Below, in pieces: positions 3,243 through 57,852 of a stretch of 64,000 nucleotides of DNA; the first letter of the stretch is position 1; every line of letters begins with the position of its first letter. The position numbers were made by a program, and so were the translations under genes. Below the pieces are notes generated by a model. That model saw only the letters and a list, made by a program, of their open reading frames with translations. It had not been told where the DNA came from and did no database searches. Source of the DNA: Micromonospora sp. WMMD1120 (GTDB lineage Bacteria > Actinomycetota > Actinomycetes > Mycobacteriales > Micromonosporaceae); NCBI RefSeq assembly GCF_029626235.1, contig NZ_JARUBO010000005.1:900501-964500 (forward strand). Reading direction: 5' to 3'.

Positions 3243-3312
3243 CGATCTTGCACTTTCGGTTGCCGTTTTGTCGCTCTGGTCCCCGTATGCGGCGACAGGA
3301 AGCGCAAGATCG
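3243..3312. repeat. Intergenic palindrome, CGATCTTGCAC family, copy 1
   Basis: The outer arms are CGATCTTGCACTTTC (3243-3257) and GGAAGCGCAAGATCG (3298-3312). An inner TGTCGC / GCGACA pair sits about ten bases inside. The arms have diverged by a few bases compared with the other copies in the window. It lies between two genes on the plus strand. Confidence 0.75.
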
Positions 3313-3367
3313 ACGCCGGAGTGGGGCGCGTGGCCTAGAACACGAACCGAGCCCGGTCGGGCTGTCG

Positions 3368-3424
3368 ACGCAACGAATCGCAGTCCGGCACCCCTCACAC
3401 GCAACGAATCTGCGCTGTGCGCAA
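3368..3424 (+). promoter_or_regulatory. Candidate operator repeats upstream of ddaH-rocD
   Basis: The 12-base word ACGCAACGAATC occurs at 3368-3379 and again at 3399-3410, 31 bases apart, which is about three helical turns. A partial third copy, GCGCAAC, lies at 3418-3424. Helically phased direct repeats ahead of an arginine/ornithine operon suggest an Lrp/AsnC- or ArgR-type regulator. The regulator is not encoded nearby. Confidence 0.45.
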
Positions 3425-3527
3425 CTCTCGACGGTAGATCCTGCCGCTGACCCCGCATAACGTTGAGCAACGGCGCCAGCCCGTGGGCCACGGTGGCCGG
3501 GCGCGCCCGACCCCTGGGAGCAGGACA

Positions 3528-4349
3528 ATGACGATGGACGCCACCAGCCAGCGCCTGTTGATGTGCCGGCCGACGTACTTCGCCGTCGACTACGCGATCA
3601 ACCCCTGGATGGACCCGAGCGCGCCGGTGGACGTCGCGCTGGCCGTTCAGCAGTGGGAGCAGCTCCGCCAGACGTACCTCGACCTGGGCCACACCGTCGA
3701 GGAGATCACTCCGGTGCCCGGCCTGCCCGACATGGTCTTCGCCGCCAACGGCGGCACGGTGATCGACGGCAAGGCGATGGCAGTGCAGTTCCGCGACCCG
3801 CAGCGCGCCGACGAGGCGCCGGCGTACCGGGCCTGGTTCGAGGCCGCCGGCTTCGAGGTGTACGACCCGAAGCACGTCAACGAGGGTGAGGGCGACGTCC
3901 TGCTGGCCGGGGACCACCTGCTGGCCGGCACCGGCTTCCGCACCGCGCACGCCTCGCACGCCCAGTTGCAGGAGGTCTTCGGCTACCCGGTGATCACCAT
4001 GCAGCTCGTCGACCCGCGCTTCTACCACCTGGACACGGCGCTGACGGTGCTCGACGAGCGGACCGTGGCGTACCTGCCGGAGGCGTTCTCCCCCGGCAGC
4101 CAGGCGGTGCTGCGCCGGCTCTTCCCGGACGCGGTGCACGCCACCATGGCCGACGCCGAGGTGCTGGGGCTGAACGCGGTCAGCGACGGGCGGCACGTGG
4201 TGCTGCCCGCGCAGGCCACCGACCTGGCCGCCAAGCTGCGCGACCGGGGCTACGAAACCATCGGTGTCGACCTGTCCGAGCTGCGTAAGGCCGGCGGCGG
4301 ACCGAAGTGCTGCACGCTACGACTCCGTCAGGGAAAGGCAAGCAAGTGA
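3528..4349 (+). CDS. ddaH: Dimethylarginine dimethylaminohydrolase-like amidinohydrolase
   Basis: This 273-residue cytoplasmic enzyme belongs to the amidinotransferase/DDAH superfamily. These hydrolyse the guanidino group of arginine-type substrates through a covalent thiol intermediate. The N-terminal L-M-C-R-P-T-Y-F, the F-A-A-N-G-G region, the F-Y-H-L-D-T histidine motif and the C-terminal G-G-P-K-C-C-T-L with the catalytic cysteine (about residue 261) are all present. The start ATG 3528 follows GGGAGCAGG. Its stop overlaps the GTG of rocD, as in mycobacteria where the Rv2323c-like gene neighbours rocD. In that setting it probably feeds citrulline/ornithine-type catabolism. The true substrate (methylarginine or arginine) is not proven. 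Confidence 0.85.
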   Translation: MTMDATSQRLLMCRPTYFAVDYAINPWMDPSAPVDVALAVQQWEQLRQTYLDLGHTVEEITPVPGLPDMVFAANGGTVIDGKAMAVQFRDPQRADEAPAYRAWFEAAGFEVYDPKHVNEGEGDVLLAGDHLLAGTGFRTAHASHAQLQEVFGYPVITMQLVDPRFYHLDTALTVLDERTVAYLPEAFSPGSQAVLRRLFPDAVHATMADAEVLGLNAVSDGRHVVLPAQATDLAAKLRDRGYETIGVDLSELRKAGGGPKCCTLRLRQGKASK

Positions 4350-5560
4350 TCGACAACATCCTGCGGACGCCGGGAGCGGTCCGGGACGCCGAGCGCTGGA
4401 CGGCGCACAACTACCACCCGCTGCCGGTGGTGATCTCGTCCGCCGAGGGAGCCTGGCTCACCGACGTGGACGGCCGGCGCTACCTCGACTGCCTGGCCGG
4501 CTACTCCGCGCTGAACTTCGGCCACCGGCATCCGCAGCTGATCGCCGCCGCGCACGCCCAGCTCGACCGGCTCACGCTGACCAGTCGGGCGTTCATCCAC
4601 GACCAGTTCGCCGACTTCTGCCGCGAGCTGGCCGAGCTGTGCGGCAAGGACCTGGTGCTGCCGATGAACACCGGCGCCGAGGCGGTGGAGACCGGGATCA
4701 AGGTGGCCCGGAAGTGGGGCTACCAGGTCAAGGGCGTGCCCGCCGGTCAGGCCAACATCGTGGTCGCCGAGGGCAACTTCCACGGCCGGACCACCACCAT
4801 CGTCAGCTTCTCCACCGACGAGGACGCCCGCGCCGACTTCGGGCCGTACACCCCGGGGTTCACCATCGTTCCGTACGGCGACCTGGACGCGCTGACCGCC
4901 GCGATCGACGAGAACACCGTCGCCGTACTGCTCGAGCCGATCCAGGGCGAGCAGGGCGTGGTGCTGCCACCGGAGGGCTACCTGCCCGGCGTACGCCAGG
5001 TCTGCACCGACCGGAACGTGCTCTTCATCGCCGACGAGATCCAGTCCGGGCTGGGGCGTACCGGGGCGACGTTCGCCTGCGACCACGAGGGCGTCGTACC
5101 CGACATGTACCTCCTCGGCAAGGCCCTCGGCGGCGGCATCGTGCCGGTGTCCGCGGTGGCCGCGAACGCCGACGTGCTCGGCGTGCTCAAGCCCGGCCAG
5201 CACGGCTCCACCTTCGGCGGCAACCCGCTGGCCTGCGCGGTGGCCGTCGAGGTGGTCCGACTGCTGGCCACCGGCGAGTTCCAGCGCCGCTCCGCCGAGC
5301 TGGGCGAGCGACTCCGTACCGGCCTGGAGGCTCTGGTTGACAGAGGCCTGGTCGGGGTACGCGTACGCGGCCTGTGGGCCGGTCTGGACATCGACCCGGC
5401 GCTGATGAGCGGCCGGGAGGCGTGTGAGCGGCTGGCGGAGCGCGGCGTGCTGGCCAAGGACACCCACGGCTCCACCATCCGGCTCGCCCCGCCGCTGGTC
5501 ATCACCGAAGAGGAGATCGACCTGGCGGTCAACGCGCTGACCGAGGTGCTGTCCGCCTAA
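4346..5560 (+). CDS. rocD: Ornithine-oxo-acid transaminase
   Basis: This PLP-dependent class III aminotransferase converts ornithine and 2-oxoglutarate to glutamate semialdehyde and glutamate. The cofactor motifs are clear: N-T-G-A-E-A-V-E-T near residue 105, F-H-G-R-T-T-T, I-A-D-E-I-Q-S-G-L-G-R-T-G, and the PLP lysine in L-L-G-K-A-L-G-G-G. GTG 4346 is preferred because it overlaps the ddaH stop (GTGA) and follows AGGGAAAGG. An in-frame ATG at 4307 would overlap ddaH by 43 bases without a ribosome site. The length of 404 residues is normal for the family. With ddaH it forms an arginine/ornithine-to-glutamate route. Confidence 0.93.
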   Translation: MIDNILRTPGAVRDAERWTAHNYHPLPVVISSAEGAWLTDVDGRRYLDCLAGYSALNFGHRHPQLIAAAHAQLDRLTLTSRAFIHDQFADFCRELAELCGKDLVLPMNTGAEAVETGIKVARKWGYQVKGVPAGQANIVVAEGNFHGRTTTIVSFSTDEDARADFGPYTPGFTIVPYGDLDALTAAIDENTVAVLLEPIQGEQGVVLPPEGYLPGVRQVCTDRNVLFIADEIQSGLGRTGATFACDHEGVVPDMYLLGKALGGGIVPVSAVAANADVLGVLKPGQHGSTFGGNPLACAVAVEVVRLLATGEFQRRSAELGERLRTGLEALVDRGLVGVRVRGLWAGLDIDPALMSGREACERLAERGVLAKDTHGSTIRLAPPLVITEEEIDLAVNALTEVLSA

Positions 5561-5656
5561 CCCCCACCCACCCCACCCACCCACCCCACCCCCACCGGCG
5601 CCCCGCCCACCCCCGCCCGGCGTTGATCATGAAGTTATTGCCGTCCACCCCGGCTT

Positions 5657-6799
5657 GGGGTCAAGGGGTGAGTGCAATCGTTAGGCGGCGATGAGGTGGT
5701 CTAGGCGTTCGGCTGGGGTTGCCCAGTCGAGTGTTTGGCGGGGGCGGGTGTTCAGTTCGTGGGCGATCTCGTCGAGGCCGCTCTGGTTGATGCTGCGGAA
5801 GTCGTAGCTGCCTTTGGGGAAGTACTGGCGTAGCAGGCCGTTGGTGTTCTCGTTGCTGCCGCGTTGCCAGGGGCTGTGGGGGTCGCAGAAGTAGACCGGG
5901 CAGCCGGTGGCGACGGTGAAGACCGCGTGGGCGGCCATCTCGCTGCCTTGGTCCCAGGTCAGTGAGCGGCGTAGGTGCGTCGGTAGTCGGGCGGTGAGGT
6001 CGGTGAGCACGCCGATGACGGCTTCGGTGTCACGCCCGTGCGGCAGCGCGCCGAGCATCACGTAGCGGGTGGCGCGTTCGACCAGTGTCACGATCGCCGA
6101 GCGGCCGCCCTTGCCGATGACCAGATCACCTTCCCAGTGACCCGGCACGGCCCGGTCGGTGGCCTCGGCGGGCCGGTTACTGATGTGCAGGTCCCCGATC
6201 CAGGGGCGGCGGCCCCGATCCGCTGCCGCCAGCCGCGACTGGGCACGCCGGTCGGCGCGTCCCGAGCGCAGAGCGACCTGCCGAGTCAACTCCTCCCGCA
6301 GGCTGCCCCGCGACTGAACGTAGATCGCCTGGTAGATCGTCTCGTGAGACACCTGCAACTCCGGCCGGTCAGCGAACATGGCCCGCAGCCACGCGGCGAT
6401 CTGCGTCGGAGACCACCTACGCGCCAGTCTGCCCCGCACCACCTGCCGCAGCCGCGTCCCGGCCCCCAACTTCGTCGCCTTCGGCCGACGCCGCGCCGCG
6501 TCAGCACGCCGCTGCGCCCACTGCGCCTGATACCCCCACCGATACGGCGCCCGAGCCCGCCCCGACGGCAACGACCGCCCCAACGGGTTCTTCGTCCCAT
6601 GCCGGGCACTGTGATACCGGCCCACCTCCCGCGAGACCGTGCTCACCGACACCCCGAGCACACCCGCGATCTGCGAAATCGTCCGCCCTGCCCCCCACAG
6701 ATGCTCCAACACCTGCCGATGCCCAAACGTCACCACACCCGGCCTCGCCACCAGCACCCCCAGCCCAACCAAGATCAGTTGCACTGAAGCCTAGAAACC
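5657..6799 (-). mobile_element. IS30-family insertion sequence, apparently complete
   Basis: The element is about 1.14 kb with one transposase gene. The proposed ends are a 21-base imperfect inverted repeat matching at 15 of 21 positions. The left end is at 5657-5677, ending in AGTGCAA, and the right end at 6779-6799, starting TTGCACT. The short words CCACCCCGG (5646) and CCACCCGGC (6798) outside the ends could be remnants of the target, but no clean target duplication is visible. The exact ends are inferred. Confidence 0.75.
5681..6784 (-). CDS. IS30-family transposase
   Basis: This 367-residue DDE transposase is apparently intact. An N-terminal helix-turn-helix (about residues 30-55, ISQIAGVLGVSVSTVSREV) is typical of IS30. 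The catalytic core has D in H-W-E-G-D-L-V-I-G, D in L-T-W-D-Q-G-S-E-M, and E in S-N-E-N-T-N-G-L-L-R-Q-Y-F-P-K-G. The GTG start at 6784 lies within the terminal inverted repeat, so expression may come from outside promoter read-in, or a slightly later start may be used. There are no frameshifts, so the element may still be mobile. Confidence 0.92.
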   Translation of the reverse strand: MQLILVGLGVLVARPGVVTFGHRQVLEHLWGAGRTISQIAGVLGVSVSTVSREVGRYHSARHGTKNPLGRSLPSGRARAPYRWGYQAQWAQRRADAARRRPKATKLGAGTRLRQVVRGRLARRWSPTQIAAWLRAMFADRPELQVSHETIYQAIYVQSRGSLREELTRQVALRSGRADRRAQSRLAAADRGRRPWIGDLHISNRPAEATDRAVPGHWEGDLVIGKGGRSAIVTLVERATRYVMLGALPHGRDTEAVIGVLTDLTARLPTHLRRSLTWDQGSEMAAHAVFTVATGCPVYFCDPHSPWQRGSNENTNGLLRQYFPKGSYDFRSINQSGLDEIAHELNTRPRQTLDWATPAERLDHLIAA

Positions 6800-6831
6800 A
6801 CCCGGCGTGTCCTGGCAATAACTTCATGATC

Positions 6832-7125
6832 AACCGGGGCCAACCCAGACCGGGGCCAACCCGGACCGGGGCCAACCCGGACCGGGGCCAACCCGGACCG
6901 GGGCCAACCCAGACCGGGGCCAACCCGGACCGGGGCCAACCCGGACCGGGGCCAACCCAGACCGGGGCCAACCCAGACCGGGGCCAACCCAGACCGGGGC
7001 CAACCCAGACCGGGACCAGCCCGGACCGGGGCCAACCCAGACCGGGACCAGCCCGGACCGGGACCAGCCCGGACCGGGGCCAGCCCGGACCGGGGCCAGC
7101 CCGGACCGGGGCCAGCCCGGGACCG
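6832..7125. repeat. 16-bp tandem repeat array, about 18 copies
   Basis: The unit is CCGGGGCCAACCCRGA. The first dozen copies are nearly identical, while the right-hand copies drift to CCGGGACCAGCCCGGA. Because 16 is not a multiple of three, every reading frame is open and cycles through a 16-residue Gly/Pro/Gln or Trp/Pro/Arg pattern. The resulting long open frames are artefacts. There are no spacers, so it is not CRISPR. The array sits between the right arm of the split palindrome and the end of the kinase-like gene. Confidence 0.9.
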
Positions 7126-7130
7126 AATGG

Positions 7131-8078
7131 TTAGGTGTAGGGGTTGCCGGTGCTGTAGAGCATTTCGACCCGCTGGTGCTGAACGGTGAACTCCTCACGG
7201 CGGCGGTCGCGCTGCGTCCACAGAACCGCGAGCCATCGCAGAGCGCACGTTCGCTGGTTCGCGGCGAAGCGGCGGCGGGTCGCGTCGGTGATCCCAAGGT
7301 CAGGCAGGAGCTGCACCCAAATGCTGTCCGGTACGGCGCGGCCGCTGATGTGCTCGACGAGGTCTGCGGCGTCGAATTCGACGTTGCTGTAGCCGGCGTA
7401 CTCGAAGTCGACGCATGCGGCGCCGCTGTCGGTCAGCATCCAGTTGAGCAAGTTCGCGTCGCCGCGGGACAGCACCCCTGCCGCCTGAGCGGTGACCATG
7501 TCAGCGTCGCCGCTGAGCCGCCAGGTCTCCAGCAAGCGCTGCATGGTGGGAGTCAACGGGTCGTTGGGCTGGCTGGCGAGCAGGTCCGGCCACGTCTGAG
7601 TCAGTCGGGCCAGGTAGTGCTCGCCGCAGTCGACTCGTGGCAGTTCGGCGAGCGGACCGGTCAAGGGCACGGCCTGAAGTCGTCTGGTGGTGTCTGCGAG
7701 GGCGCGCAGGGCGGCCAGCGGGTCTGCGGCCCCGGTCAGCGGCTGCCCGTGCAGGCGAGTCATGCCGATCGCGGGCTCGACCGGCGCGGCGTCGTGCCAC
7801 AACGGAGCGGGCACGGTGTGGAGGTGGTGGGGAGCGAGCAGGGTGAGGGCTGCCCATTCCCGCTCGGCGCGTTGCCGGTCGGTCTTGACGTACAGCTTGA
7901 TGATCACCTCGCCCTCCTGGGGTGACGTCCACAGGTAGATGTCGTTCTGCATGCCGCCGCTGAGGGGGCGCAGACCCAGTGCTGACAGCGCGGCGTCGCG
8001 GTCCTCGGCGCTGGCGCGGACGCGGCGGAGCTCGGCAAGCAGGGTCGTGGGGGGAACGTCGATGAGCGGCACGGTCAT
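7131..8078 (-). CDS. Aminoglycoside phosphotransferase (APH)-like kinase
   Basis: This 315-residue protein starts at ATG 8078. An N-terminal lobe carries a lysine in VIIKLYVKTDR. A C-terminal lobe has L-S-R-G-D-A-N-L-L-N-W-M-L, which is the Brenner/H-x-D-x-x-x-x-N loop with Arg-Gly-Asp in place of His-Gly-Asp, and a metal-binding V-D-F-E-Y-A-G. This is the APH/choline kinase fold, whose members phosphorylate small alcohols, sugars or antibiotics with ATP. The substrate cannot be assigned. The frame stays open for 430 bases upstream, but that part resembles IS110 debris and repeats, so it was excluded. There are no partner genes, and the flanking mobile DNA suggests acquisition by transfer. 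Confidence 0.75.
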   Translation of the reverse strand: MTVPLIDVPPTTLLAELRRVRASAEDRDAALSALGLRPLSGGMQNDIYLWTSPQEGEVIIKLYVKTDRQRAEREWAALTLLAPHHLHTVPAPLWHDAAPVEPAIGMTRLHGQPLTGAADPLAALRALADTTRRLQAVPLTGPLAELPRVDCGEHYLARLTQTWPDLLASQPNDPLTPTMQRLLETWRLSGDADMVTAQAAGVLSRGDANLLNWMLTDSGAACVDFEYAGYSNVEFDAADLVEHISGRAVPDSIWVQLLPDLGITDATRRRFAANQRTCALRWLAVLWTQRDRRREEFTVQHQRVEMLYSTGNPYT

Positions 8079-8299
8079 GGGGTACGGGCTCCAGCTCGTC
8101 GGAATGGATCGGACTCCATGGATCGACGGTAGTGCGAGGGCTGTGCACCGAGGGGCAGGACGCGGCTTGCCTAGTCGCCGGCTCGCCGGCGGGCCGGGGG
8201 CGGCCGGATCAAGGTCTGCGACGCCAGCGAGCACCGCCTGGTGTGTCTCGTCCACGGACAGTCCGCTGACGTCAACGGCGTGCAGGTCGAGGGGTGTCC

Positions 8300-8793
8300 T
8301 CGGCGAGGGCGCCGCGACCTGGTCACGTTGTCGCAGGACGTCGCAGAGGCGAAGCGCGGCGCGGCGCGGCGCGAGGCGAGGCGAGGCGAGGCGAGACGAG
8401 GCGAGACGAGACGGGATCGTCTCCGCCGCAGCAGCGCCGGGGACGGTGATGGTCTGCTCGTCGAGGGCGGTCATGATCTGCGCGACGAGACGTTCACCCA
8501 TGCGAGGCACGTGCGCCTCAGCGAACGAGACTAGGGTGCGGCGGGCGGTCTAGCGCAGTCCGGCCGGGTGGCGCTGCCCGCGGGGTCGTCATCGCAGCCG
8601 ACGAGGACTTCCATCTCGGCCGGGGCCAGGCACCGACGTCGACCCGCCGCAGCGTGCGGGGCAGGCCACGGGCGGCGTCAGCGATGACGTGGGCGTCCCG
8701 GGCGGCCGTGCCCCTGCCAGCGGGCCCACCGTCGCCACCCGACCCGGCGACAACACCCCCCGCCTCATCCGAACGACAGGGGCAAGAAGTCAT
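8300..8793 (-). pseudogene. Degraded IS110-family transposase remnant
   Basis: Translated on the minus strand, two pieces look like parts of an IS110-type transposase. The 5' piece (about 8600-8760) reads ARDAHVIADAARGLPRTLRR, then in a shifted frame L-A-P-A-E-M-E-V-L-V-G-C-D-D-D. This matches the usual K-S-D-x-R-D-A-x-V-I-A-D...LRRVD core. The 3' piece (about 8340-8510) reads MGERLVAQIMTALDEQT, V-P-G-A-A-A-A-E and V-L-R-Q-R-D-Q-V-A, which matches the family's C-terminal part. The middle is deleted and a GAGGC microsatellite interrupts the 3' piece. No functional protein is possible. The family call is from remembered motifs. Confidence 0.6.
8355..8412. repeat. GCGGC/GAGGC/GAGAC microsatellite
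   Basis: A run of five-base units (GGCGC, then GAGGC repeated four or five times, then GAGAC) lies inside the IS110 remnant. On the minus strand it reads as repeated Arg-Leu-Ala-Ser residues that are absent from a normal transposase. It probably expanded by slippage after the gene died. Confidence 0.7.
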
Positions 8794-8821
8794 ACCGGGC
8801 CGGGGGCCGGGGGTAGCTGGA

Positions 8822-9976
8822 TCAGGGGCGGGGTAGACGCATGGCCATTGTGGGGGCCTCGGCCATCACCGAGGTGGGTGTGAACGGGGCGCCGGTCGGC
8901 AGTTCCTCGGCCCGGCCGATCTGCACCCCCGGGTACAGCTCGACCATGTCGTTCTCGCCGAGGACGCGGGACTGCTGCGGGGCCAGGGGGATGCGGTCCG
9001 CCTCCGCCATCGAGCCGGCCGGGCGGATGCCGGAGCCGTTCGTGCTGATGTCGGTCACGATGACCTCGCCGACCCGCAGCTCGAAGCGGACGTGACCCCG
9101 GCTGATCCACCGCCGGGCCTCGTCGTTGAGCCACTGCCCGAGCATGATGCCGCCGTCCTGCTCGGGAGCGCGGCCCGCCACCACCGGCTGCTCCTCGCTC
9201 AGCACGAACCGCCGCCGGACCAGGCCGCCGACCCGAACGGCGAGCACCTCGGTACGCGGGCGCGGGCCGACGTCACGCAGCCGTACGCCGTGCCGGGGGC
9301 AGGTCGGCACACCGTTGCGCAGCGCGGGCGGCGCCTGCGCGGCGGGGCTGCGGTCGGCACCTCCGGCCAGGTCGGCGAACGCGCCGCCACCACCACCGCC
9401 GCCGAACAGCGCGCAGCCCGACTCCGGGCAGCGCCAGTGCCGGGCCAGCAGCTTGACGCCGGTCGGTGACCGCGTGCCGGCCACCGGCTCGTGACCGCCA
9501 CCGACGTGCGCGATGAACACCGGCCCACCCGCTCCGGGCACCGGGGCGACCACCCGACCCGGCTGCTCGACGAGCCACGGGAACCGACCGCGCAGCCCGT
9601 CGAAGCGGACCCGGCTGAGCACCGGCAGCCCAAGCAGGTCGGCGACCTCCAGCATGCGGTCGCCCGGGTTGTCGAGCACCTCCACGAGCCCGTCGTCGGC
9701 CCAGCGGCGGACGACCATCCGCTCGTTCGAGGTGAGGTCGGCGTCGGAGAGCAACGCCCGGTGCACCACCGCGTAGACCTGGACGCTGTCCTCTTCCAGT
9801 TCGCGGGAGAGCGCGTCGATGACCATGCCGAGGCGCAGCAGGCTGGCCGGTCGGCCACCGTCGATGTCCTGGTATCGGATGATCTCGGCCAGGTCGACGA
9901 CGGCCCGGGCCAGCGACGGGTCCGTGCAGACCCGCCCCTCGATGGCGTCCAACACCTTGCTGATCTCGAATCTCAT
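8822..9976 (-). CDS. FHA-domain protein with an N-terminal conserved region
   Basis: This 384-residue soluble protein starts at ATG 9976. Residues 1-110 are a helical region of unknown family (MRFEISKVLDAIEGRVCTDP...). A Gly-rich linker around 190-225 contains a run of Gly and two cysteine pairs (C-P-E-S-G-C and C-P-R-H-G). A forkhead-associated domain spans about 265-365, with the phospho-Thr binding signatures S-R-G-H and S-T-N-G-S. FHA domains bind phosphothreonine, so it may be a substrate or effector of a Ser/Thr kinase. The kinase gene at 17351 is the nearest candidate, a link by inference only. Confidence 0.8.
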   Translation of the reverse strand: MRFEISKVLDAIEGRVCTDPSLARAVVDLAEIIRYQDIDGGRPASLLRLGMVIDALSRELEEDSVQVYAVVHRALLSDADLTSNERMVVRRWADDGLVEVLDNPGDRMLEVADLLGLPVLSRVRFDGLRGRFPWLVEQPGRVVAPVPGAGGPVFIAHVGGGHEPVAGTRSPTGVKLLARHWRCPESGCALFGGGGGGGAFADLAGGADRSPAAQAPPALRNGVPTCPRHGVRLRDVGPRPRTEVLAVRVGGLVRRRFVLSEEQPVVAGRAPEQDGGIMLGQWLNDEARRWISRGHVRFELRVGEVIVTDISTNGSGIRPAGSMAEADRIPLAPQQSRVLGENDMVELYPGVQIGRAEELPTGAPFTPTSVMAEAPTMAMRLPRP

Positions 9977-26371: not shown

Positions 26372-26475
26372 GGTGGCAGTGCCACCGCGCGCCACGATCG
26401 CGCTCGATCCTGGTTGTAGTGGCATCCCACGCCGACCAGGGCCACCACTTCCCGGAACGAGCGCGATCTTGGCAC
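26372..26475. repeat. Complex palindromic element between olsA-like and DUF4097 genes
   Basis: A perfect 15-base palindrome GGTGGCAGTGCCACC (26372-26386) is followed by a larger stem. Its arms GATCGCGCTCG (26396-26406) and CGAGCGCGATC (26458-26468) are 51 bases apart. The right arm continues as GCGCGATCTTGGCAC, close to the left arm of the CGATCTTGCAC family, so this may be a diverged member. It is placed where the DUF4097-PadR promoter would lie. Confidence 0.6.
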
Positions 26476-26516
26476 GCCGCAGGGCGCACGCCGTGTGGCT
26501 CGTGGCAGCGGCTCGC

Positions 26517-35287: not shown

Positions 35288-35368
35288 CCTCCGCCCCGTT
35301 GATCATGAAGTTGGTCGGGCGTGTCGTCAGCGTGTCGCGCCATAACTTCATGATCAACGGGGCGGAGG
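35288..35368. repeat. Intact GTTGATCATGAAGTT palindrome
   Basis: The arms CCCCGTTGATCATGAAGTT and AACTTCATGATCAACGGGG (35294-35312 and 35344-35362) are exact. The match extends further outward through CTCCG / CGGAG to about 35288 and 35368. The interior is 31 bases. The left flank is C-rich and the right flank G-rich. Confidence 0.85.
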
Positions 35369-40070: not shown

Positions 40071-41036
40071 ATGTCGCCACGCGTCACCCCCGCCCTGCTC
40101 GCCACCGCCGTGCTGCTGGCCGGCCTGGTCGGCTGCTCCGCCGACGCCCGCAGGAGCGGGAGCTGGCAGCCACCGGCCGAGCCAGCACCCGCCGCCACGC
40201 CGACCCCGCGGGTAGCCGCCGGCAAGGCGCCGGAGCGTGCCTTCGCGGTCGGCGTACGCCAGCTCAAGCTGAACCGGGACGGCCGGGCGCTGCCCACGAC
40301 GCTGTGGTACCCGGCGGTCGGGCAGTCCGGCGGCGCGGCCCGGCGGTCGGCGACCGCGGCGGAGGGCCGGTTCCCGGTGGTGATGTTCAGCCACGGGCTG
40401 GGTGGGCGGCCGGACGACTACGCGACGCTGCTCACCCGCTGGGCGGCGGCGGGCTTCGTGGTGGCCGCCCCGGCGTTCCCGCACACCTCCCGGGGCGGCG
40501 ACAACAACGTGCTCGACGTGCTCAACCAGCCGGCCGACGTGTCGTACACGCTGGACCAGGTGTTGGCGTTGGACGCGAAGGCCGGCGACGCGCTGCGCGG
40601 CCGGTTGGACGGCGAGCGGGTGGCCGCGGCAGGGCACTCGGCCGGCGCGGTGACCACCATCGGGCTCTTCACCGCCAGCCGGGACGAACGGCTCGACGCC
40701 GGTGTGGTGTTCGCGGGCACCGCGCTCGGGGTGGGCACCGCGTTCGCCGGCGCCGCCGCACCGCAACTGTTCGTGCACGGCGAGCTGGACGAGGTGATCG
40801 ACTACGCGGCGGGCAAGGCCGCGTACGACAAGGTGCCGTGGCCGAAGGCGATGTTGAGCCTGCCCAAGGGCGACCACGGTCGGGCGCTGCTCAGCGACGG
40901 CGCGACGCTACGGGTCGTCTCGGACACCTCGGTCGAGTTCCTGCGCTGGTCGCTCTACGGCGACGCGGCGGCGAAGAGGCGCATCCCCACCGACGCGACG
41001 CGCGGCGACATCGCCACCTTCGACGACCACCTCTGA
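40071..41036 (+). CDS. Lipoprotein alpha/beta hydrolase (second paralog)
   Basis: This 321-residue lipoprotein starts at ATG 40071, with lipobox L-V-G-C near residue 22 and a Pro/Ala linker. The hydrolase domain has F-S-H-G-L-G-G, A-G-H-S-A-G-A with the Ser nucleophile, V-H-G-E-L-D-E-V-I and P-K-G-D-H-G-R. It aligns along its length with the preceding gene (shared T-R-W-A-A-A-G-F-V-V-A-A-P, F-L-R-W-x-L-Y-G-D). Both are in the same direction with their own starts, so they are probably cotranscribed paralogs with different substrate preference. Confidence 0.82.
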   Translation: MSPRVTPALLATAVLLAGLVGCSADARRSGSWQPPAEPAPAATPTPRVAAGKAPERAFAVGVRQLKLNRDGRALPTTLWYPAVGQSGGAARRSATAAEGRFPVVMFSHGLGGRPDDYATLLTRWAAAGFVVAAPAFPHTSRGGDNNVLDVLNQPADVSYTLDQVLALDAKAGDALRGRLDGERVAAAGHSAGAVTTIGLFTASRDERLDAGVVFAGTALGVGTAFAGAAAPQLFVHGELDEVIDYAAGKAAYDKVPWPKAMLSLPKGDHGRALLSDGATLRVVSDTSVEFLRWSLYGDAAAKRRIPTDATRGDIATFDDHL

Positions 41037-41057: not shown

Positions 41058-41133
41058 GCGCGATCTTGCACTTTCGGCGGTGACATAGCGGGGCATGCTT
41101 CGTTAATCGACAACAGAAAGTGCAAGATCGCGC
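41058..41133. repeat. Intergenic palindrome, CGATCTTGCAC family, copy 2
   Basis: The arms GCGCGATCTTGCACTTTC (41058-41075) and GAAAGTGCAAGATCGCGC (41116-41133) are exact, with 40 bases between. It lies between convergent genes. A GGGGC array follows on the right. Confidence 0.9.
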
Positions 41134-41135
41134 GG

Positions 41136-41194
41136 GGCGGCGCGGGGCGGGGCGGGGCGGGGCGGGGCGGGGCGGGGCGGGGCGGGGCGGGGCG
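41136..41194 (+). repeat. (GGGGC)n array, about ten copies
   Basis: A five-base GGGGC tandem tract starts just right of palindrome copy 2 and ends seven bases before the stop codon of the oxidoreductase gene. It has quadruplex potential on the plus strand. There is no coding content. Confidence 0.85.
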
Positions 41195-51198: not shown

Positions 51199-51348
51199 GC
51201 GCCCATGCTGCCACACCCCACAGGGACCGGCCAATGTCCGCGTGCGGCATCCCACATCACGGGCCAGCCCTCCGCACGTCCCCTACCCCCGGCCCTGATC
51301 CCCGATCCTGGTCCCCCGCCCCCGCCCCGGCCCAGGGCCCCCGGCCCA

Positions 51349-51421
51349 CGCGATCTTGCACTTCTTGTCGCGACATATAGGGCAGTGCACCCATACCGAC
51401 GACTGAAACTGCAAGATCGCG
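51349..51421. repeat. Intergenic palindrome, CGATCTTGCAC family, copy 3
   Basis: The arms CGCGATCTTGCACTT (51349-51363) and AACTGCAAGATCGCG (51407-51421) have one mismatch. It lies between divergent genes, unlike most copies. The left flank is C-rich (51300-51345) and the right flank consists of GGGTGGGG runs (51422-51470). Confidence 0.85.
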
Positions 51422-51519
51422 GGTGGGGTTCGGGTGGGGTTCGGGTGGGGTGGGGGTGGGTGGTTTGCGGGGTGGGCCCGGGAGGGCTGAGGGCGTGGCA
51501 GGCTCGGGCCGTGGGGGGA

Positions 51520-53007
51520 ATGTCCGAGAAGTCGACCCGGGTGCTTCGGCGTCCGCCGGTCTGGCTTCCTCCGGCGCTGCTCACCCTGGCGGTGACGCTG
51601 ACCGGCCTGGACTCGGCGCAGCTCTGGCGGGACGAGCTGGCGACCTGGAGCGCGGCCACCCGGTCGCCCGGCGAGCTGGCCAGGCTGGCCGGCACCATCG
51701 ATGCCGCCACCGGGCCGTACTACCTGCTCATGCACGGCTGGACCACTGTCGCCGGGGACTCCACAGTCGCCCTGCGGCTGCCGGCCGTGCTGGCGATGGC
51801 GGTGGCCGCCGGGCTGCTCGCCGTACTCGGCGGGTGGCTCGTCGACCGGCGCTGCGGTCTCTTCGCCGGGCTGCTGTTCGCGGTGCTCCCCGGCACCTCC
51901 CGGTACGGGCAGGAGGCCCGCCCGTACGCCCTGGCCACGATGCTCGCTGTCCTCGCCACGGTGCTCCTGGTGGCCGCGCTGCGGCGGCCGAGCTGGGCCC
52001 GCTGGACCGGGTACGCGGTCGCCGTCACCGCGCTCGGGCTCATCCACCTGATCGCGCTCACCCTGCTCGTCGTACACGCGCTCGTGGTTGTGGTGACCTG
52101 GTGGCGCGGCCCGGCGGCGGCCGGCGTCGCCGCACCGGCTGCTCCCGGGGCCGCCCGGGACGGCCGGATGTGGCGGTGGGTGGTCGCGGTGGTGCCGGTC
52201 GCGGTACTGGTGGGTCCGCTGCTGATCGAGGCCCGGACACAGCGGTCCCGGCAGTTGAACTGGGTCCACCTGGCCCGGCTGGACGACCTGAGCGCGCTGC
52301 CCGGCGGCGTGACGCAGAGCAGCGTGGTGGGCGGCCTGCTGGTCGGGGTCGCCGGCCTGGGCGCCGCCCGGCTCGGGCGGCGTGCGCTGCTGCCGGTGAG
52401 CGCGGTCCTGTTGCCCGTGCTGCTGCTCTTCGCGGTCGGCGCGGTCGTGCCGCTGTGGGTGCCCCGCTACCTGGTCTTCGTGGTGCCCTTCGCGTGTCTG
52501 CTGGCCGGCGCGGCGCTGGCCGCGGTGCCCGCGCGGGCCGCGCTCGTCGTGGTGGTCCTGGCCGGGCTGCTCGGCCTGCCCGACCAGGCCGCGCTGCGCC
52601 GGACCCACGAGTGGCCCCGCACCGCCCCGGTGGACTACGCGGGGGCGGCGCGGGTGATCGCCGAGGGTCAACGGCCCGGGGACGGCATCGTCTACTCGCC
52701 CCGACGCAGTTGGCTCTTCCTCGACCTCGGCATCGACTACCACCTGGCGGACCGACCGCGGGACGTGCTGGTCACCGAGGACGAGGACCGTCGGGGTGAC
52801 CTGTGGGCGGCGGAGTGCCCCGACCCGGCGCGGTGCCTGACCGGCGCGGAACGGGTGTGGCTCGTCCTCTCCGGTCGGCACGGCGAACCGCTGCCAGCCG
52901 TGCCGGGAAAGAAGGGCGACGCGCTGCGCGAGGGCTTCACCGTCACCCAGGTCTGGCAGCGCCCCGGCCTGACCGTGGCCCTGCTGAATCGCCGCTCCGA
53001 CCGCTGA
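51520..53007 (+). CDS. Polytopic glycosyltransferase (GT39/ArnT-like)
   Basis: This 495-residue inner membrane protein has about ten to eleven helices. The first periplasmic loop carries the conserved acidic pair D-E in L-W-R-D-E-L-A-T-W near residue 37. A long C-terminal extracytoplasmic domain of about 130 residues follows. The topology is that of the GT-C family (PMT/ArnT/DPMT type) which uses polyprenyl-phosphate sugar donors. ATG 51520 is chosen, and a GTG nine bases upstream with GGGGGG next to it is possible. The acceptor is unknown. It lies between palindrome copy 3 and the PdtaS-like kinase. Confidence 0.82.
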   Translation: MSEKSTRVLRRPPVWLPPALLTLAVTLTGLDSAQLWRDELATWSAATRSPGELARLAGTIDAATGPYYLLMHGWTTVAGDSTVALRLPAVLAMAVAAGLLAVLGGWLVDRRCGLFAGLLFAVLPGTSRYGQEARPYALATMLAVLATVLLVAALRRPSWARWTGYAVAVTALGLIHLIALTLLVVHALVVVVTWWRGPAAAGVAAPAAPGAARDGRMWRWVVAVVPVAVLVGPLLIEARTQRSRQLNWVHLARLDDLSALPGGVTQSSVVGGLLVGVAGLGAARLGRRALLPVSAVLLPVLLLFAVGAVVPLWVPRYLVFVVPFACLLAGAALAAVPARAALVVVVLAGLLGLPDQAALRRTHEWPRTAPVDYAGAARVIAEGQRPGDGIVYSPRRSWLFLDLGIDYHLADRPRDVLVTEDEDRRGDLWAAECPDPARCLTGAERVWLVLSGRHGEPLPAVPGKKGDALREGFTVTQVWQRPGLTVALLNRRSDR

Positions 53008-53058
53008 CCCGCCGTCCCGACTGGCCGGAGCGAGCCGGGCCGGGGGCGGGGGCGGGCC

Positions 53059-54651
53059 TCAGGGTTGCGCGCGCCCGTCGGGGGCGTTGCGGGCCAGCGG
53101 TACGGCGAGCACGGCCTCGGTGCCGCCGTTGGCGCCGGCGCGCAACTCGATGGTGCCGCGCAACTCCCCGGTGACCAGCGCGCGGACGATCTGCAGGCCG
53201 AGCCGGCTGCCACGTTCGGCGTCGAAGTCCGGAGGTAGGCCGCGCCCGTTGTCGGTGACCGAGACGTGCAGCATCTTGCGGAACCGGTGGGCCGAGACCA
53301 CCACCTCGGGCCGCTCCGACGGGTCGACCTCGGCGACGGCGGCCGGCACCATGCCGGAGGCGGCGGGCACCGGGGCCTCGTCGGCCTCCTCGGCCGGCGG
53401 GAAGCCGTGCTCCACAGCGTTGAGCAGCAACTCGTTCAGGACCATCACCAGCGAGGTGGCGATCTCCGCCGGCAGCACACCGAAGCTGCCCCGGCGGCGC
53501 ATGCCGACGCTCACCTCGGTCACCGCGACCTCGGTCGCCGCGCTGGCCACCCGGTCGACGATGCCGTCGAACTCGACAGCCTCGTCGCTGGACATCGAAA
53601 GCGTCTCGTGCACCAGGGCGATCGAGGCGACCCGGCGGACCGACTCCTCCAACGCGACCCGCGCCTCCGGCATCGCCACCCGGCGGGCCTGCAACCGCAG
53701 CAGCGCGGCGACCGTCTGGAGGTTGTTCTTCACCCGGTGGTGGATCTCCCGGATGGTGGCGTCCTTGGTGATCAGCGCCCGGTCCCGGCGACGGACCTCG
53801 GTGATGTCCCGCACCAGCACCAACGCGCCGATCGGCACGCCGGCCGGCATCAGCGGCAGCGCCCGGGTGAGCATGGTGGCCCCCCGGGCGTCGATCTCCC
53901 GTCGCGGCGGCCCCTCGCCGCGCAACGCGGCCAGGATGCCGTTCGCCGCCTCGGTGCCCTCCAACGGGTCACCGGCCAGCCGGCGGTGCAGCCCGGCCAG
54001 GTCCTCGCCCACCAGGTGCGAGACGTAGCCCAGGCGGCGGTACGCGGACTGGGCGTTCGGGCTGGCGTAGGTGACCTTGCCGCCGGCGTCGAGCCGCACC
54101 AGGCCGTCGCCGACCCGGGGCGCGGACGTGGTCTCGCCCGGATGACGCGGCGGCGGGAAGGTGCCGTCCGCGATCATCTGCGCCAGGTCGTCGGCGGTGG
54201 TCAGGTAGTTCAACTCCAGCTGGCTGGGGGTACGGGCGGTGGAGAGGTTGGTGTCCCGTCCCACCACGGCGATCACCTCACCGGCCTCCCCCTCGGCGGT
54301 GCGCAGCCGGACCGGGATCGCCTCGTGCCGGGCCGGCACGTCGCCGTACCAGACCGGGTCGCCCTCCCGCCAGATCCGGCCCTGGGAGTACGCCACCCCG
54401 AGGTGGGCCACCTCCGACCCGCCGACGATCCGGCCCACCTGGTCGTCCTGGTAGGCGGTGGGCGCGGTGGTCGGGCGGACCTGGGCGACGCAGAGGAACG
54501 TGCCGTCGGCGTCGACGGGCACCCAGAGCAGCAGGTCAGCGAAGGACAGGTCGGAGAGCAACTGCCAGTCGCCGGCGATCCGGTGCAGGTGGTCGATGTC
54601 GGCCGGACGGAGGTGGGTGTGCTCCTCGGCGAGGTCGCGCAGCGTGGACAC
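53059..54651 (-). CDS. pdtaS: Cytoplasmic sensor histidine kinase, PdtaS-like
   Basis: This 530-residue soluble kinase contains a GAF-type domain (about 15-170), a PAS domain (about 185-290), a HisKA_2 domain with H-H-R-V-K-N-N-L-Q-T-V near residue 310, and a HATPase (about 400-520) with L-N-E-L-L-L-N-A-V-E-H-G and D-N-G-R-G-L-P. PdtaS phosphorylates the ANTAR RNA-binding regulator PdtaR in Mycobacterium, where it lies next to whiB1 (Rv3220c). No PdtaR gene occurs in this window. Ala/Pro insert of about 25 residues within HATPase domain is unusual. Confidence 0.9.
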   Translation of the reverse strand: MSTLRDLAEEHTHLRPADIDHLHRIAGDWQLLSDLSFADLLLWVPVDADGTFLCVAQVRPTTAPTAYQDDQVGRIVGGSEVAHLGVAYSQGRIWREGDPVWYGDVPARHEAIPVRLRTAEGEAGEVIAVVGRDTNLSTARTPSQLELNYLTTADDLAQMIADGTFPPPRHPGETTSAPRVGDGLVRLDAGGKVTYASPNAQSAYRRLGYVSHLVGEDLAGLHRRLAGDPLEGTEAANGILAALRGEGPPRREIDARGATMLTRALPLMPAGVPIGALVLVRDITEVRRRDRALITKDATIREIHHRVKNNLQTVAALLRLQARRVAMPEARVALEESVRRVASIALVHETLSMSSDEAVEFDGIVDRVASAATEVAVTEVSVGMRRRGSFGVLPAEIATSLVMVLNELLLNAVEHGFPPAEEADEAPVPAASGMVPAAVAEVDPSERPEVVVSAHRFRKMLHVSVTDNGRGLPPDFDAERGSRLGLQIVRALVTGELRGTIELRAGANGGTEAVLAVPLARNAPDGRAQP

Positions 54652-54676
54652 GGTGACCAGGGTGCCACGCCGCGCC

Positions 54677-55729
54677 TCACATCGTCGCGGTGACCTTCTT
54701 CAGGCCGCGCGGCGCGTCCGGGTCCTCACCCCGGGTCAGCGCCAGGGCCAGGGCCAACCGCTGCAACGGCAGGATGTCCAGCAGTGGGGCGTACCGCTCG
54801 TCGACCTCGGGCACGGCCAGCCGGGTCGCGCCCGGCACGTCGGCGGAGCCGACCACGACGACATCGGCGCGACGTTCACCGAGGCGGGGCAACACCTCGC
54901 CCATCGAACGCCCGCCGGGACCGGAGCCGACGACCGCGAGCACCGGGACCTCCGGGTCGGTCATCGCCAGCGGGCCGTGCAGCAGGTCGGCGCCCGAGAA
55001 GGCGAGGGCCGGCAGGTAGGAGGTCTCCATCAGTTTCAGCGCTGCCTCGCGGGCGGTCGGGTACGCGTACCCCCGACCGGTGGTGACCAGTTGGCGGGCG
55101 AACCGGTAGCGCGGCGCGAGCTGCGCAGGGGTGCCGTCGGTCAGGGTGCGGGCGGCCAGGTCGGGGAGCGCGTCGAGAGCCTTCCGCTCGGCGGCCGGGA
55201 GCACGCCGTCGCCGGCCCGGACCCCCTCCACCAGCATCAACAGGGCGAGCAGCTCGGCCGTGTAGGTCTTTGTCGCGGCCACCGCCCGCTCGTGCCCGGC
55301 GGCGATGTCGACGCTCAGCTCGGCCGCCTCGACGAGCGGCGAGTCGGGCGCGTTGGTCACCGCGAGGGTCAGCGCCCCGGACGCGCGGGCGGCGCGCAGC
55401 ACCTCGGTCAGGTCGGGTGAGCCGCCGCTCTGGCTGACGCCGACGACGAGCGCGTCGGACAGGTCGGGGCGGGCCCCGAAGAGGGTGACCACGCTGGGCG
55501 AGGCGAGCCCGGCGGGCAGGCCGAGCCGGATCTCGGTCAGGTACGCCCCGTAGAGCGCCGCGTGGTCGGAGGTGCCCCGGGCGGTGAAGACCACGTGCCG
55601 TGGGCGGCGCTCGGCGATGACCGCCGCCACCCGGGCGATCTCGGTGGCGCTGGCCGTGGCGAGCAGGCGCGCGTAGCCGGCCGGCTGCTCGTCGATGTCG
55701 GCGGCCATGCCAGCCCCTGCGCGTGTCAC
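54677..55729 (-). CDS. SIS-domain sugar isomerase/deaminase-like protein
   Basis: This 350-residue protein starts at GTG 55729, six bases after AGAGGGGA. A shorter ATG at 55708 is possible. Two SIS domains are visible (about 35-175 and 200-345), with F-T-A-R-G-T-S-D-H-A-A and V-S-Q-S-G-G-S-P-D in the first, and E-T-S-Y-L-P-A-L-A-F-S-G-A-D-L-L-H-G-P-L-A in the second. The family includes the isomerase half of GlmS, AgaS and NagB-II glucosamine-6-phosphate deaminases. It has no glutaminase domain, so NagB-II or FrlB-like activity is more probable than GlmS. Confidence 0.86.
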   Translation of the reverse strand: MTRAGAGMAADIDEQPAGYARLLATASATEIARVAAVIAERRPRHVVFTARGTSDHAALYGAYLTEIRLGLPAGLASPSVVTLFGARPDLSDALVVGVSQSGGSPDLTEVLRAARASGALTLAVTNAPDSPLVEAAELSVDIAAGHERAVAATKTYTAELLALLMLVEGVRAGDGVLPAAERKALDALPDLAARTLTDGTPAQLAPRYRFARQLVTTGRGYAYPTAREAALKLMETSYLPALAFSGADLLHGPLAMTDPEVPVLAVVGSGPGGRSMGEVLPRLGERRADVVVVGSADVPGATRLAVPEVDERYAPLLDILPLQRLALALALTRGEDPDAPRGLKKVTATM

Positions 55730-55899
55730 TGCCACTCCCCTCTCTGCGCGGTTGCCGCGCGAATCTTGCTCAGTCTTGCATTTTTCCATCCCGTACAGCA
55801 ATTGAACGAGCAGAAGTGCGCAGTAGCTCACCTGGTGATCTCAATATCAACTACGCTGGACGCGGCCGCACCCGGTCCAACCCGTGACGAGAGGACGAC

Positions 55900-57735
55900 G
55901 TGCCCGACGGAACGGACGACTCCGCGCTCTCGGCGACCGAGGAGCTGGCGCTGGCCCGGCTGGCCCTCGACGAGGGCGACCTGCACCACGCCGCCGGGCA
56001 CCTCGCCGGCGCGTTGGCGCGGGCGCCCACCCTCCCGGAGGTCCACGAGACGCTGGCCCGGCTGGCCGCGACGGACGGCGGCGGCCTCGACCTCTTCCCG
56101 ATCAACCACCACACCTTCGTCGGCGCCGTCGTCGCGCGGGCGCACCTCCTCGCCACCGCCGGCCGCCCCGCCGAAGGACTCGACCTACTGGCCGTGGCGA
56201 CCGTCTACGCACCCGGCGCCCAGTGGGCCGGCGTGCCCTGGGTCACCGCGCCCGAACTCGCCGAACGACTCCCCCCGGAACACATCGCCCGCGTCCTCAT
56301 GCAGGTCTGCGCCGCGCTGCCCGACCCGGTGCCGCGGGTCGGTCGGGCCGCGCTGATCCCGTACCTCACGCTCGCCCGCAACGCGGCCACCGTGCACCCC
56401 GAGCACGGCCTCCTGCTGGGCGCGGCGTCCGCGTTGGCCCGGCGTCTCGGCGAGGTCGAGCTGGCCGTCCGCTGGGCCTCCCGAGGGGTACGCGCACAGC
56501 CCTCGAAGATGGGCGAGGTGTGGCTCGGGTACGCGTACCGCAGCTCGGGCCGGACCCGCGACGGCCTGGCGGCCCTCGGTCGGGCCGTCGAGCTGGACCC
56601 CGACGACCTGGCGATCTACGCGGACATCGCGGGCACGCTCGCCGAGATCGGCCGGCTCGACGAGGCGCTGGAGTGGGCCGAGCGGGCCCTGGCGCGCGAC
56701 CCCTCCTTCGACTGCGCGGTGCACACCGCCCACCGGGTACGCCACCTACGCGACGGCAACCTCGCCCACCTGGTCGCCCTCGCCGACTTCGTCCGCGACC
56801 ATCCGGACGACAGCCACGAGCACGGCGACCTCGCCCAGTGCTGCCGGAGTCGACCCTGGCTCGGTCAACTGACCCCGGCCGGCGGCGCGCTCGTCGACGC
56901 GCTGCGGCAGGCGGTGGCCGACGACGACAACGGCCTGGGCGGCACGGTGAGCCTGGCCGCCCCCGCCCCGCCGAGCGCTGTCGTGACGGCGCTCGCCAAC
57001 GCTCCCGGGCTGCGGATGGTTGTCGACGCGGTGCCGGAGCCGGACCCGCGCGAGCCACGCCGGGCGTCGGCCCGGCGGCTGTGGCACTACGCCGGGCAGA
57101 TTCCCACGCCCGCGCTGCCGGCTCCCTCGCCCACCGCTGTCGAACGGGTCGGGCAGATCGCGCACCCGGCCTGGGCGCACCCGCCGGCGGCGTACGACGC
57201 GGCGGTGGGCCTGGCCGGCCTGGACGTGGCCGACCTGCTCGGCCTGCTGGTGCACCCACCGGCCGCGCCGGCCAACGCGGTGGGTCGACTGCTGGCCGCC
57301 CACGACCCGTCGGTCTGGGTCCGTGGCGTGCAGGTGTGGGCCTGCCTGGGGCTGCTGCACCACCGCACCGACGAGCCGTGGGAGGGGTCGACACGGCGGC
57401 GGGTGCTGCTCGACCTGATCTGGGGCGTCGAGGACTGGGTCACCGAGGCAGCGCTGTTCGCCCTGGTCACCGCCGCCTGGGTCGACCCCGAGGTCCGGCC
57501 GGACGTGGCGCGGGTGGTGGGCGAACGTCTCGCCGACGCGGCCGCCGTGGCACGGACCCGACCGGTCCCGATCATCGCCTCGCTGGCCCACCTGACGCTC
57601 GCCACGCCGGAGCTGGACCCGGGCACCGCGGCCCTGGCCGGCGAACTGCTCGACACCTACTCCCCGCGACTCCCCCGCCCCCGCAACCCACTGCGCCGCC
57701 TCTGGCAACGCCTAACCCGCCCCCGCAACCCCTAA
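55900..57735 (+). CDS. TPR-repeat protein
   Basis: This 611-residue soluble protein starts at GTG 55900. Residues 15-60 and 160-290 contain tetratricopeptide-like helical pairs (A-x-x-x-L-G-R-A-V-E-L-D-P-D-D-L-A-I-Y-x-D-I, A-L-E-W-A-E-R-A-L-A-R-D-P). The C-terminal half is helical and contains the conserved-looking L-V-H-P-P-A-A-P-A-N. The last 20 residues carry a duplicated R-P-R-N-P. It probably acts as a scaffold. There is no membrane segment. It is divergent from the SIS gene and converges with the MFS transporter across palindrome copy 4. Function unknown. Confidence 0.8.
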   Translation: MPDGTDDSALSATEELALARLALDEGDLHHAAGHLAGALARAPTLPEVHETLARLAATDGGGLDLFPINHHTFVGAVVARAHLLATAGRPAEGLDLLAVATVYAPGAQWAGVPWVTAPELAERLPPEHIARVLMQVCAALPDPVPRVGRAALIPYLTLARNAATVHPEHGLLLGAASALARRLGEVELAVRWASRGVRAQPSKMGEVWLGYAYRSSGRTRDGLAALGRAVELDPDDLAIYADIAGTLAEIGRLDEALEWAERALARDPSFDCAVHTAHRVRHLRDGNLAHLVALADFVRDHPDDSHEHGDLAQCCRSRPWLGQLTPAGGALVDALRQAVADDDNGLGGTVSLAAPAPPSAVVTALANAPGLRMVVDAVPEPDPREPRRASARRLWHYAGQIPTPALPAPSPTAVERVGQIAHPAWAHPPAAYDAAVGLAGLDVADLLGLLVHPPAAPANAVGRLLAAHDPSVWVRGVQVWACLGLLHHRTDEPWEGSTRRRVLLDLIWGVEDWVTEAALFALVTAAWVDPEVRPDVARVVGERLADAAAVARTRPVPIIASLAHLTLATPELDPGTAALAGELLDTYSPRLPRPRNPLRRLWQRLTRPRNP

Positions 57736-57779
57736 CCCCACCCCCTCCCCACCCCCCACCCCCCCGCGCCCCCTTCCCC

Positions 57780-57852
57780 GCGATCTTGCACTCGCTGTCG
57801 TCGATTCGCCGGGAAGGGGAGCTTTTGTCGACGCAGAAAGTGCAAGATCGCG
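57780..57852. repeat. Intergenic palindrome, CGATCTTGCAC family, copy 4
   Basis: The arms CGCGATCTTGCAC (57780-57792) and GTGCAAGATCGCG (57840-57852) are exact, with a GTCG / CGAC pair inside. It lies between convergent genes, with C-rich DNA left (57736-57779) and G-rich DNA right (57853-57905). Confidence 0.88.

Follow-up and report, generated by a model that had tools for sequence, protein, structure and literature searches.

DNA uptake sequences in inverted pairs act as terminators. In REPINs, which are doublets of repetitive extragenic palindromes (REPs) forming hairpins, an inverted word pair with a spacer is found extragenically in many copies and with predicted hairpins, as laid out in the part of PMC3116915 on which we draw. 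The GTAG- and CGTC-tagged REPs, in the portion of PMC3733652 used here, are dispersed palindromes located mostly between convergent and unidirectional open reading frames (ORFs), downstream of coding regions, and those of the CGTC type are apparently without a dedicated transposase. The Term-seq results for Streptomyces, in the corresponding portion of PMC12207403, revealed few U residues in terminators and suggest Rho-dependent or noncanonical termination. Here we describe a family of palindromes, family A, four copies of which had been pointed out in an earlier note on a stretch of Micromonospora sp. WMMD1120. This stretch (the window) comprises 64,000 nucleotides, C5:900501-964500 of a genome of 7.15 Mb. 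We consider it about an even bet (probability roughly 0.5) that family A consists of REPIN-like dispersed inverted doublets kept as bidirectional 3'-end/termination or insulator elements.

An inverted doublet of near-constant length

All four palindromes of the earlier note were present in the window, each of them matched by a covariance model (E values of 5.3e-14 to 3.8e-11). They are listed here with the adjoining tracts.

3244..3311, minus strand: family A copy 1 (67.9 bits), in a codirectional gap; right arm with one mismatch
41062..41129, plus strand: family A copy 2 (67.2 bits), between convergent genes with stops at 41036 and 41201
41130..41194, no strand: G-rich tract following copy 2 and containing GGGGC repeats, read from the sequence
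51352..51418, plus strand: family A copy 3 (56.9 bits), in a divergent gap; right arm GATCTTGCAG
57736..57781, no strand: C-rich tract before copy 4, read from the sequence
57782..57849, minus strand: family A copy 4 (69.3 bits), between convergent genes with stops at 57735 and 57906; four relatives have an orthologous copy
57850..57905, no strand: G-rich tract after copy 4, read from the sequence

The word GATCTTGCAC occurs exactly six times in the window, always inside one of the four copies; the other two arms, the right arms of copies 1 and 3, are each one base off. When the whole genome was searched for the word with its inverse, as the earlier note had suggested, the strict pair GATCTTGCAC..GTGCAAGATC was found 51 times and the reversed control pattern not once. 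A covariance model built from 50 of the 51 listed strict-pair places located family A at 117 or more distinct places in the genome, a lower bound given that 150 of 1146 candidates were scored (both strands). The arms are near-fixed as GATCTTGCACTT and the interior is diverged. Over the 12+12 arm bases, 36 of the 117 copies have no mismatch, 34 have one, 29 two, 15 three and 3 four, a constancy that is biased upward because the model was built from exact-arm copies. The length is 68 bp in 77 copies, 67 bp in 34, 69 bp in five and 65 bp in one. Thus the family described in the earlier note is real, but its lengths of 70-76 bases with arms of 13-18 bases give way to a near-constant unit of 65-69 bp.

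The two arms are separated by about 44-48 bp. In the DNA examined, a sample chosen largely for holding pairs, arms of the GATCTTGCAC type were paired in 313 cases and solo in none. The interior is oriented, with a CTGTCGCGACATAA-like left side and a GGCATAACGGCAACCG-like right side, and the conservation profile alternates between invariant and free positions. When oriented, the interiors of non-orthologous 68-bp pairs from this genome are on average 51% identical, with a 99th percentile of 68%. Two tandem pairs of family A have interiors 82% and 89% identical. Among 50 copies of this genome, tandem neighbours aside, the closest interiors are 77% identical; no recent burst is therefore visible.

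The doublets lie mostly downstream of genes

Genes were called with our own codon-usage script, which is not an annotation. None of the 117 copies lies inside a called gene. Seventy copies are in convergent, 42 in codirectional and 5 in divergent gaps, compared to 7, 48 and 35 for element-free control gaps of at least 60 bp from the same loci (Fisher p of 1.4e-15 for the convergent excess and 3.8e-10 for the divergent deficit). The earlier note had argued from mixed contexts that the palindromes are not simply terminators. The contexts of the four window copies are indeed mixed (copy 1 codirectional, copies 2 and 4 convergent, copy 3 divergent), but these copies are an atypical sample, and the census, with its strong convergent and downstream-of-stop bias and its depletion of divergent gaps, does not support the argument.

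A second set of loci, L001-L145, is mostly from other species (L001-L015 are from this genome). In its analyses of context, folding and flanks an Acaryochloris locus (L090) was excluded, a Dactylosporangium locus (L053) was left out of one analysis only, and duplicate elements were removed. The 126 classified loci comprise 67 convergent, 50 codirectional and 9 divergent gaps, compared to 49, 203 and 150 in the control; 19 edge cases and one inside-ORF case stand outside the 126. In the 50 codirectional gaps, the element is separated by a median of 28 bp from the upstream stop and of 101.5 bp from the start that follows. The orientation of the element relative to the gene in these gaps (30 vs 19, one unassigned) was not convincing, and orientation along the chromosome was mixed. 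The called gene to the left of copy 1 is without a Pfam match.

Palindromes flanked by C-rich and G-rich tracts

In the set of 145 elements, a stretch of at least 40 bases ahead of the palindrome is rich in C and a corresponding stretch behind it is rich in G, so that the C-left/G-right flanks, noted earlier for some of the window copies, are general. The bases outside the arms are mostly CGC and GCG, with GTC before the arm in a minority, and the commonest junction, CGC-GATC..GATC-GCG (hyphens at the arm ends), is present in 55 of the 145. In convergent gaps the C-minus-G skew toward the element is 0.56-0.58 with an element and 0.07 without one, and in codirectional gaps it is 0.61 on the upstream side; a C-rich, G-poor upstream stretch of the Rho type is accordingly present (0.56-0.61 on the upstream side). 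A quadruplex motif was found in at least one 70-bp flank for 98 of the 117 copies of this genome, compared to 0 and 2 in the opposite sense and 54 of 5000 random 70-mers. Tandem arrays were found in 83 of the 117 flank pairs and in 42 of 400 random 300-mers; both sets of random pieces were drawn from the whole DNA, coding included. Complementarity of the flanks beyond the arms rises above the level set by composition at just two positions, the second and third base outward.

Likeness to described repeats and terminators

With DNA uptake sequences, family A shares a short fixed word, inverted pairs and a location at gene ends; it differs in that its word occurred only in pairs in our pair-rich sample, and in the 44-48 bp between its arms. 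As in the REPINs of the cited part of PMC3116915, an inverted doublet of a conserved word encloses a diverged spacer, here at 117 extragenic places, with predicted hairpins. Family A differs from these in the absence of a positive association with REP-associated tyrosine transposases (RAYTs), in the lack of solo arms in the same sample and in its C-rich/G-rich sandwich. Membership among RAYT-driven REPs was rejected. The RAYT domain Y1_Tnp (PF01797) has 0 matches in this genome, and the trend across the genus is negative: the domain is present in 17 of 61 genomes; of the 14 genomes with 76 or more family A matches two carry it, as do seven of the 12 that have no match. Ten of the RAYT loci contained no exact superfamily pattern (see below). 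The link to a RAYT that the earlier note had envisaged was thus abandoned.

The GTAG/CGTC REPs of PMC3733652, as portrayed in the portion used here, resemble family A in location and, for the CGTC type, in being apparently transposase-less. They measure 20-40 bp, compared to about 55-70 bp with GATCWWGNRSTT arms for the elements here, and family A, at 65-69 bp in this genome and with no unpaired end tag seen, was not assigned to them. The main text of that paper makes no mention of Micromonospora, Salinispora, Actino or Streptomyces. The intrinsic terminators of Streptomyces are, like our elements, stable hairpins after genes with few U; no family of shared sequence and fixed length is described for them in the part of PMC12207403 considered.

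Across the 117 copies (offsets 0-5), a search for the target-site duplication of a miniature inverted-repeat transposable element (MITE) yielded a direct repeat of 5 bp at most once and, at 6-9 bp, no repeat at all. A weak excess of shorter repeats (2 bp, 43 vs 26; 4 bp, 5 vs 1.9) is ascribed to the GC-type ends. No full-length transposon with family A ends was seen in the stretches examined, which cover part of the genome. A known structured RNA family was rejected, as the six Rfam matches in the window (E up to 5) all fell below their gathering scores; two of these sub-threshold matches overlap palindromes (copy 4 and a family E element), both to a microRNA model.

Turnover at orthologous gaps

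The gap of copy 4 was readable in 23 of 28 genomes. By classes assigned by eye, as also for the gap of copy 2, it holds family A in five genomes (this one included), a short GC-rich hairpin in 11, family E (see below) in two, a GGGGCCCC-type palindrome in two and other structures in three. Family A stands together with the GC-rich hairpin in one carrier and alone in four. No family A element with decayed arms was present among the spacers inspected at this gap. A local tree was drawn from the flanking genes of the 29 genomes, out of 37, whose sequence sufficed; it may differ from the species tree, and the carriers are scattered over it. In the four pairs of equal length (of 10), the interiors at this gap share 70-91% identity, above the non-orthologous 99th percentile of 68%. 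From these comparisons, one ancestral gain followed by several losses, or locus transfer, seems more likely than repeated insertion. The five orthologues have a mean pairwise identity of 98.3% in the arms, 69.5% at positions 13-22 and 74.5% in the centre, and the third codon positions of the gene neighbouring copy 4 are 88.6% identical.

At the gap of copy 2, 28 of 30 loci were readable: two hold family A, nine hold GATC-armed palindromes of other types, about six the GGGGCCCC type and 11 none. The interiors of the two family A elements are 66% identical, between the 95th and 99th non-orthologous percentiles, and their common origin is therefore uncertain. The comparison of filled and empty sites, another suggestion of the earlier note, hence found some relatives filled and others empty or differently filled. 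The note would have yielded had the sites always been convergent terminators filled in all relatives, and they are not. At the same orthologous gaps of other Micromonospora, a repeated hairpin type (GGAAGGGCCCCTTCTTAACGCC..) was observed at L173, L174, L183, L184, L207 and L210.

Interior folding

The predicted folding energy of the family A interior in this genome is -8.9, compared to -7.9 (sd 0.23) for chimeras of left and right halves, which fold a little less stably throughout. The corresponding values are -13.3 and -11.8 (sd 0.34) for the other loci, and -9.0 and -8.1 (sd 0.30) for family E. Among 89 aligned copies of this genome, changes on both sides are found mainly at columns 10/60, 18/52 and 20/50 and in the centre.

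Sister families and distribution

Family A matches are present in 49 of 61 genus genomes and absent from 12, at 1 to at least 84 per genome (both strands counted, stricter filters, up to 84 candidates scored per genome). The earlier idea of a dispersed, REP/MITE-like family was upheld by a copy number far above chance and by this patchy occupancy. Among 80 of 120 stretches from named species, the carriers are Micromonospora, one Verrucosispora, one Dactylosporangium and unclassified Micromonosporaceae; a single match in an Acaryochloris bin (L090) looks like chance. Fifteen of 25 genus genomes contain the strict pattern, compared to none of the 16 genomes drawn from 16 other genera of the order. 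A further model search at a strict cut-off, over 100 sources, gave 89 matches.

A scan for strong hairpins in the DNA examined revealed further palindrome families. Family E has GTTGATCATGAAGTT arms and 44 exact pairs in this genome, each 61 bp. The arms of A (GATCTTGCACTT), of E (GATCATGAAGTT), GATCATGGAGTT and GATCAAGAGGTT all fit GATCWWGNRSTT. Inverted GATCWWGNRSTT pairs number 144 in this genome; within the bacterial family 114 of 250 genomes carry them, spread over 24 of 44 genera and including 62 of 63 genus genomes. In a sample of the class they occur in 24 of 296 genomes and 13 of 114 genera, with a maximum of 54 per genome in another bacterial family. No genome matched the reversed control, and strict patterns of this kind undercount both superfamily and family copies. 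Spacings fall mainly into two classes, of about 55 bp and of 65-70 bp, which differ by roughly one helical turn. The arm pattern suggests common ancestry or common recognition, and by this pattern family A appears as one branch of a larger actinomycete superfamily, with E as a sister branch.

The flanks of family E have a C-minus-G skew of 0.56-0.61, like those of A, and its 29 elements examined are in 14 convergent, 13 codirectional and one divergent gap, with one unclassified. In four groups of superfamily elements from other genomes, the skew is 0.35, 0.30, 0.45 and 0.51, with quadruplex motifs in 4 of 20, 8 of 23, 11 of 13 and 6 of 9, respectively. Sixty-five superfamily members from 60 stretches of seven further genomes (G430, G488, G440, G203, G161, G012 and G042, first listed places) comprise 30 convergent, 34 codirectional, no divergent and one edge case, compared to 7, 48 and 34 in the controls. 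The other genus tested has a weaker convergent excess (8 of 23, control 6 of 40).

No published description of the palindrome family or of its superfamily was found in the literature searched, which took in few subscription papers; papers containing GATCTTGCAC were unrelated among the matches listed, and GTTGATCATGAAGTT was found in none. Viral carriage was rejected: 2.9 million contigs held 3 stretches with the A pattern and 62 with the superfamily pattern, and none of those inspected (all 3 A stretches and the 10 of 62 with GC over 0.6 or at least 11 matching arm positions) had C/G flanks.

The window also contains palindromes of other families and a transposase ORF.

5622..6834, no strand: family E palindrome split by an insertion, arms 5622-5636 and 6820-6834, from arm matches
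5681..6784, minus strand: transposase ORF (HTH_38 + rve) inside the split E palindrome, from domain matches
26387..26477, no strand: palindrome of another family, GATC-containing arms and GTAGTGGC..GGCCACCAC core, from the hairpin scan; resembles the palindromes of relatives at the copy 2 gap
35298..35358, no strand: family E palindrome, GTTGATCATGAAGTT arms, 61 bp, flanks CCTCCGCCCC and GGGGCGGAGG, from the hairpin scan

The transposase at 5681..6784 is presumably IS30-like, judging by its family features. The ends of the insertion at 5622-6834 contain AGTGCAA, a string also within the A arm, possibly by chance. Directly after the split palindrome, a tandem array of 16-bp units (ccggggccaacccgga type) spans 6835-6960. 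At L053:5580-5649 in Dactylosporangium, A arms are combined with an inner GTGGTGCC/GGCACCAC stem and a GACACGCCG core as in E; by its sequence this element is a mosaic linking families A and E. In the draft assemblies G005 (C9, C256, C265), G017 (C10), G044 (C87) and G050 (C17, C63), elements are about 13-200 bp from a contig start; the elements may break draft assemblies.

Discussion

The reading of family A as bidirectional 3'-end/termination or insulator elements draws support from the copy number, the length, the location bias, the symmetrical flanks and the conservation of the arms at one orthologous site, and from family A coexisting with, or being replaced by, other hairpins at the same gap. 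One relative carries A together with an ordinary hairpin and most others carry only one of them, which fits functional redundancy. Termination at the elements is suggested by sequence features. Two near-invariant 12-bp half-sites, GATCTTGCACTT, are opposed to one another within a constant 67-68 bp. A transcript running out of a gene would meet, on both strands alike, a C-rich leader, a hairpin and then a G-rich, quadruplex-prone tract. The C-rich RNA may load Rho, while the hairpin and the G-tract may pause the polymerase or protect the 3' end. The transcript would be ended or trimmed, and neighbouring genes, convergent ones especially, would be insulated. The arms would be kept constant through a factor that reads their sequence, and since occupancy is patchy, dispersal could be due to a putative mobiliser.

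Several observations weigh against this reading. The skew is only slightly weaker on the 5' side of a downstream gene (0.45) or in a divergent gap (0.51); being independent of the direction of transcription, the tracts are therefore part of the element or its product. Divergent gaps hold five of the 117 copies, including copy 3 of the window. Outside this species, the sandwich is weaker in another bacterial family and in another genus (skew 0.35 and 0.30, quadruplex 4 of 20 and 8 of 23, respectively). At the copy 2 gap, 11 of the 28 readable loci, with spacers of 1-100 bp, are without any repeated palindrome, and in two of them 1 bp separates the stop codons; a palindrome is thus not required there. 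The pairing signal is modest, with 71.4% standard pairs in the 89 aligned copies and 69.7% after shuffling. Sliding the partners by one column gives a higher covariation score (0.104) than the structure proper (0.089), and aligned family E pairs show no pairwise covariation. An RNA stem as the main constraint was rejected for this weak covariation in A and its absence in E, and we retain at most a weak hairpin constraint. As base pairing does not explain the arms, sequence recognition is needed, whether by a mobiliser, a termination factor or an architectural protein.

Of the other explanations, a selfish element of the REPIN or MITE type, moved by a putative transposase for which the arms are kept, with 3' ends as harmless insertion sites, is somewhat unlikely in our judgment. 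The many copies, patchy in relatives, the several families, each with its own arms, the occurrence of different families at one orthologous gap and the two tandem pairs with similar interiors would all be expected of it, as would the doublet with spacer known from REPINs (the part of PMC3116915 cited above). Such an element is harder to reconcile with arms that are held at an inherited site in five species while the interior changes, with the lack of a target duplication of 5 bp or more, with a genome devoid of RAYTs and with the missing burst. Sites bound by a nucleoid or topology protein, be it gyrase, condensin or an architectural protein that recognises a sequence, and located where convergent transcription piles up supercoils, would account for the convergent bias, for half-sites at a fixed spacing of about six helical turns, for length classes that differ by roughly one turn, for the alternation of invariant and free positions and for the lack of covariation in E. 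They would leave the flank tracts unexplained; codirectional copies are common, and no candidate protein was identified, and we deem this account very unlikely. Most improbable of all are ordinary intrinsic terminators (hairpin and U-run) resembling one another by chance, already disfavoured by base composition. The sites after stop codons and the stable predicted hairpins agree with them, but intrinsic termination needs neither a fixed word nor a fixed length. Five or more T within eight bases shortly after the hairpin were found in 1 of 117 copies on the right and 0 of 117 on the left; this scarcity of T-runs removed family A from the U-run class and counts against the termination/insulator reading as well.

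A more specific form of the termination/insulator reading, which we hold to be quite unlikely, is an actinomycete factor-dependent bidirectional terminator/insulator. A putative protein family would read paired GATCWWGNRSTT half-sites separated by a fixed number of helical turns and, together with the sandwich of C-tract and quadruplex, would block RNA polymerase from either side. The half-site word and its reader would have diversified into families that replace one another at gene ends.

How transcripts end in high-GC actinomycetes with few U-runs is unsettled, and the superfamily provides a setting in which this is directly testable. The low-U termination of Streptomyces, as presented in the cited part of PMC12207403, is a setting where such elements would matter. 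Their natural presence and absence at orthologous gaps of related species makes the role testable, and the elements could serve as insulators for actinomycete engineering. Family A would also be a REPIN-like family that thrives without RAYTs.

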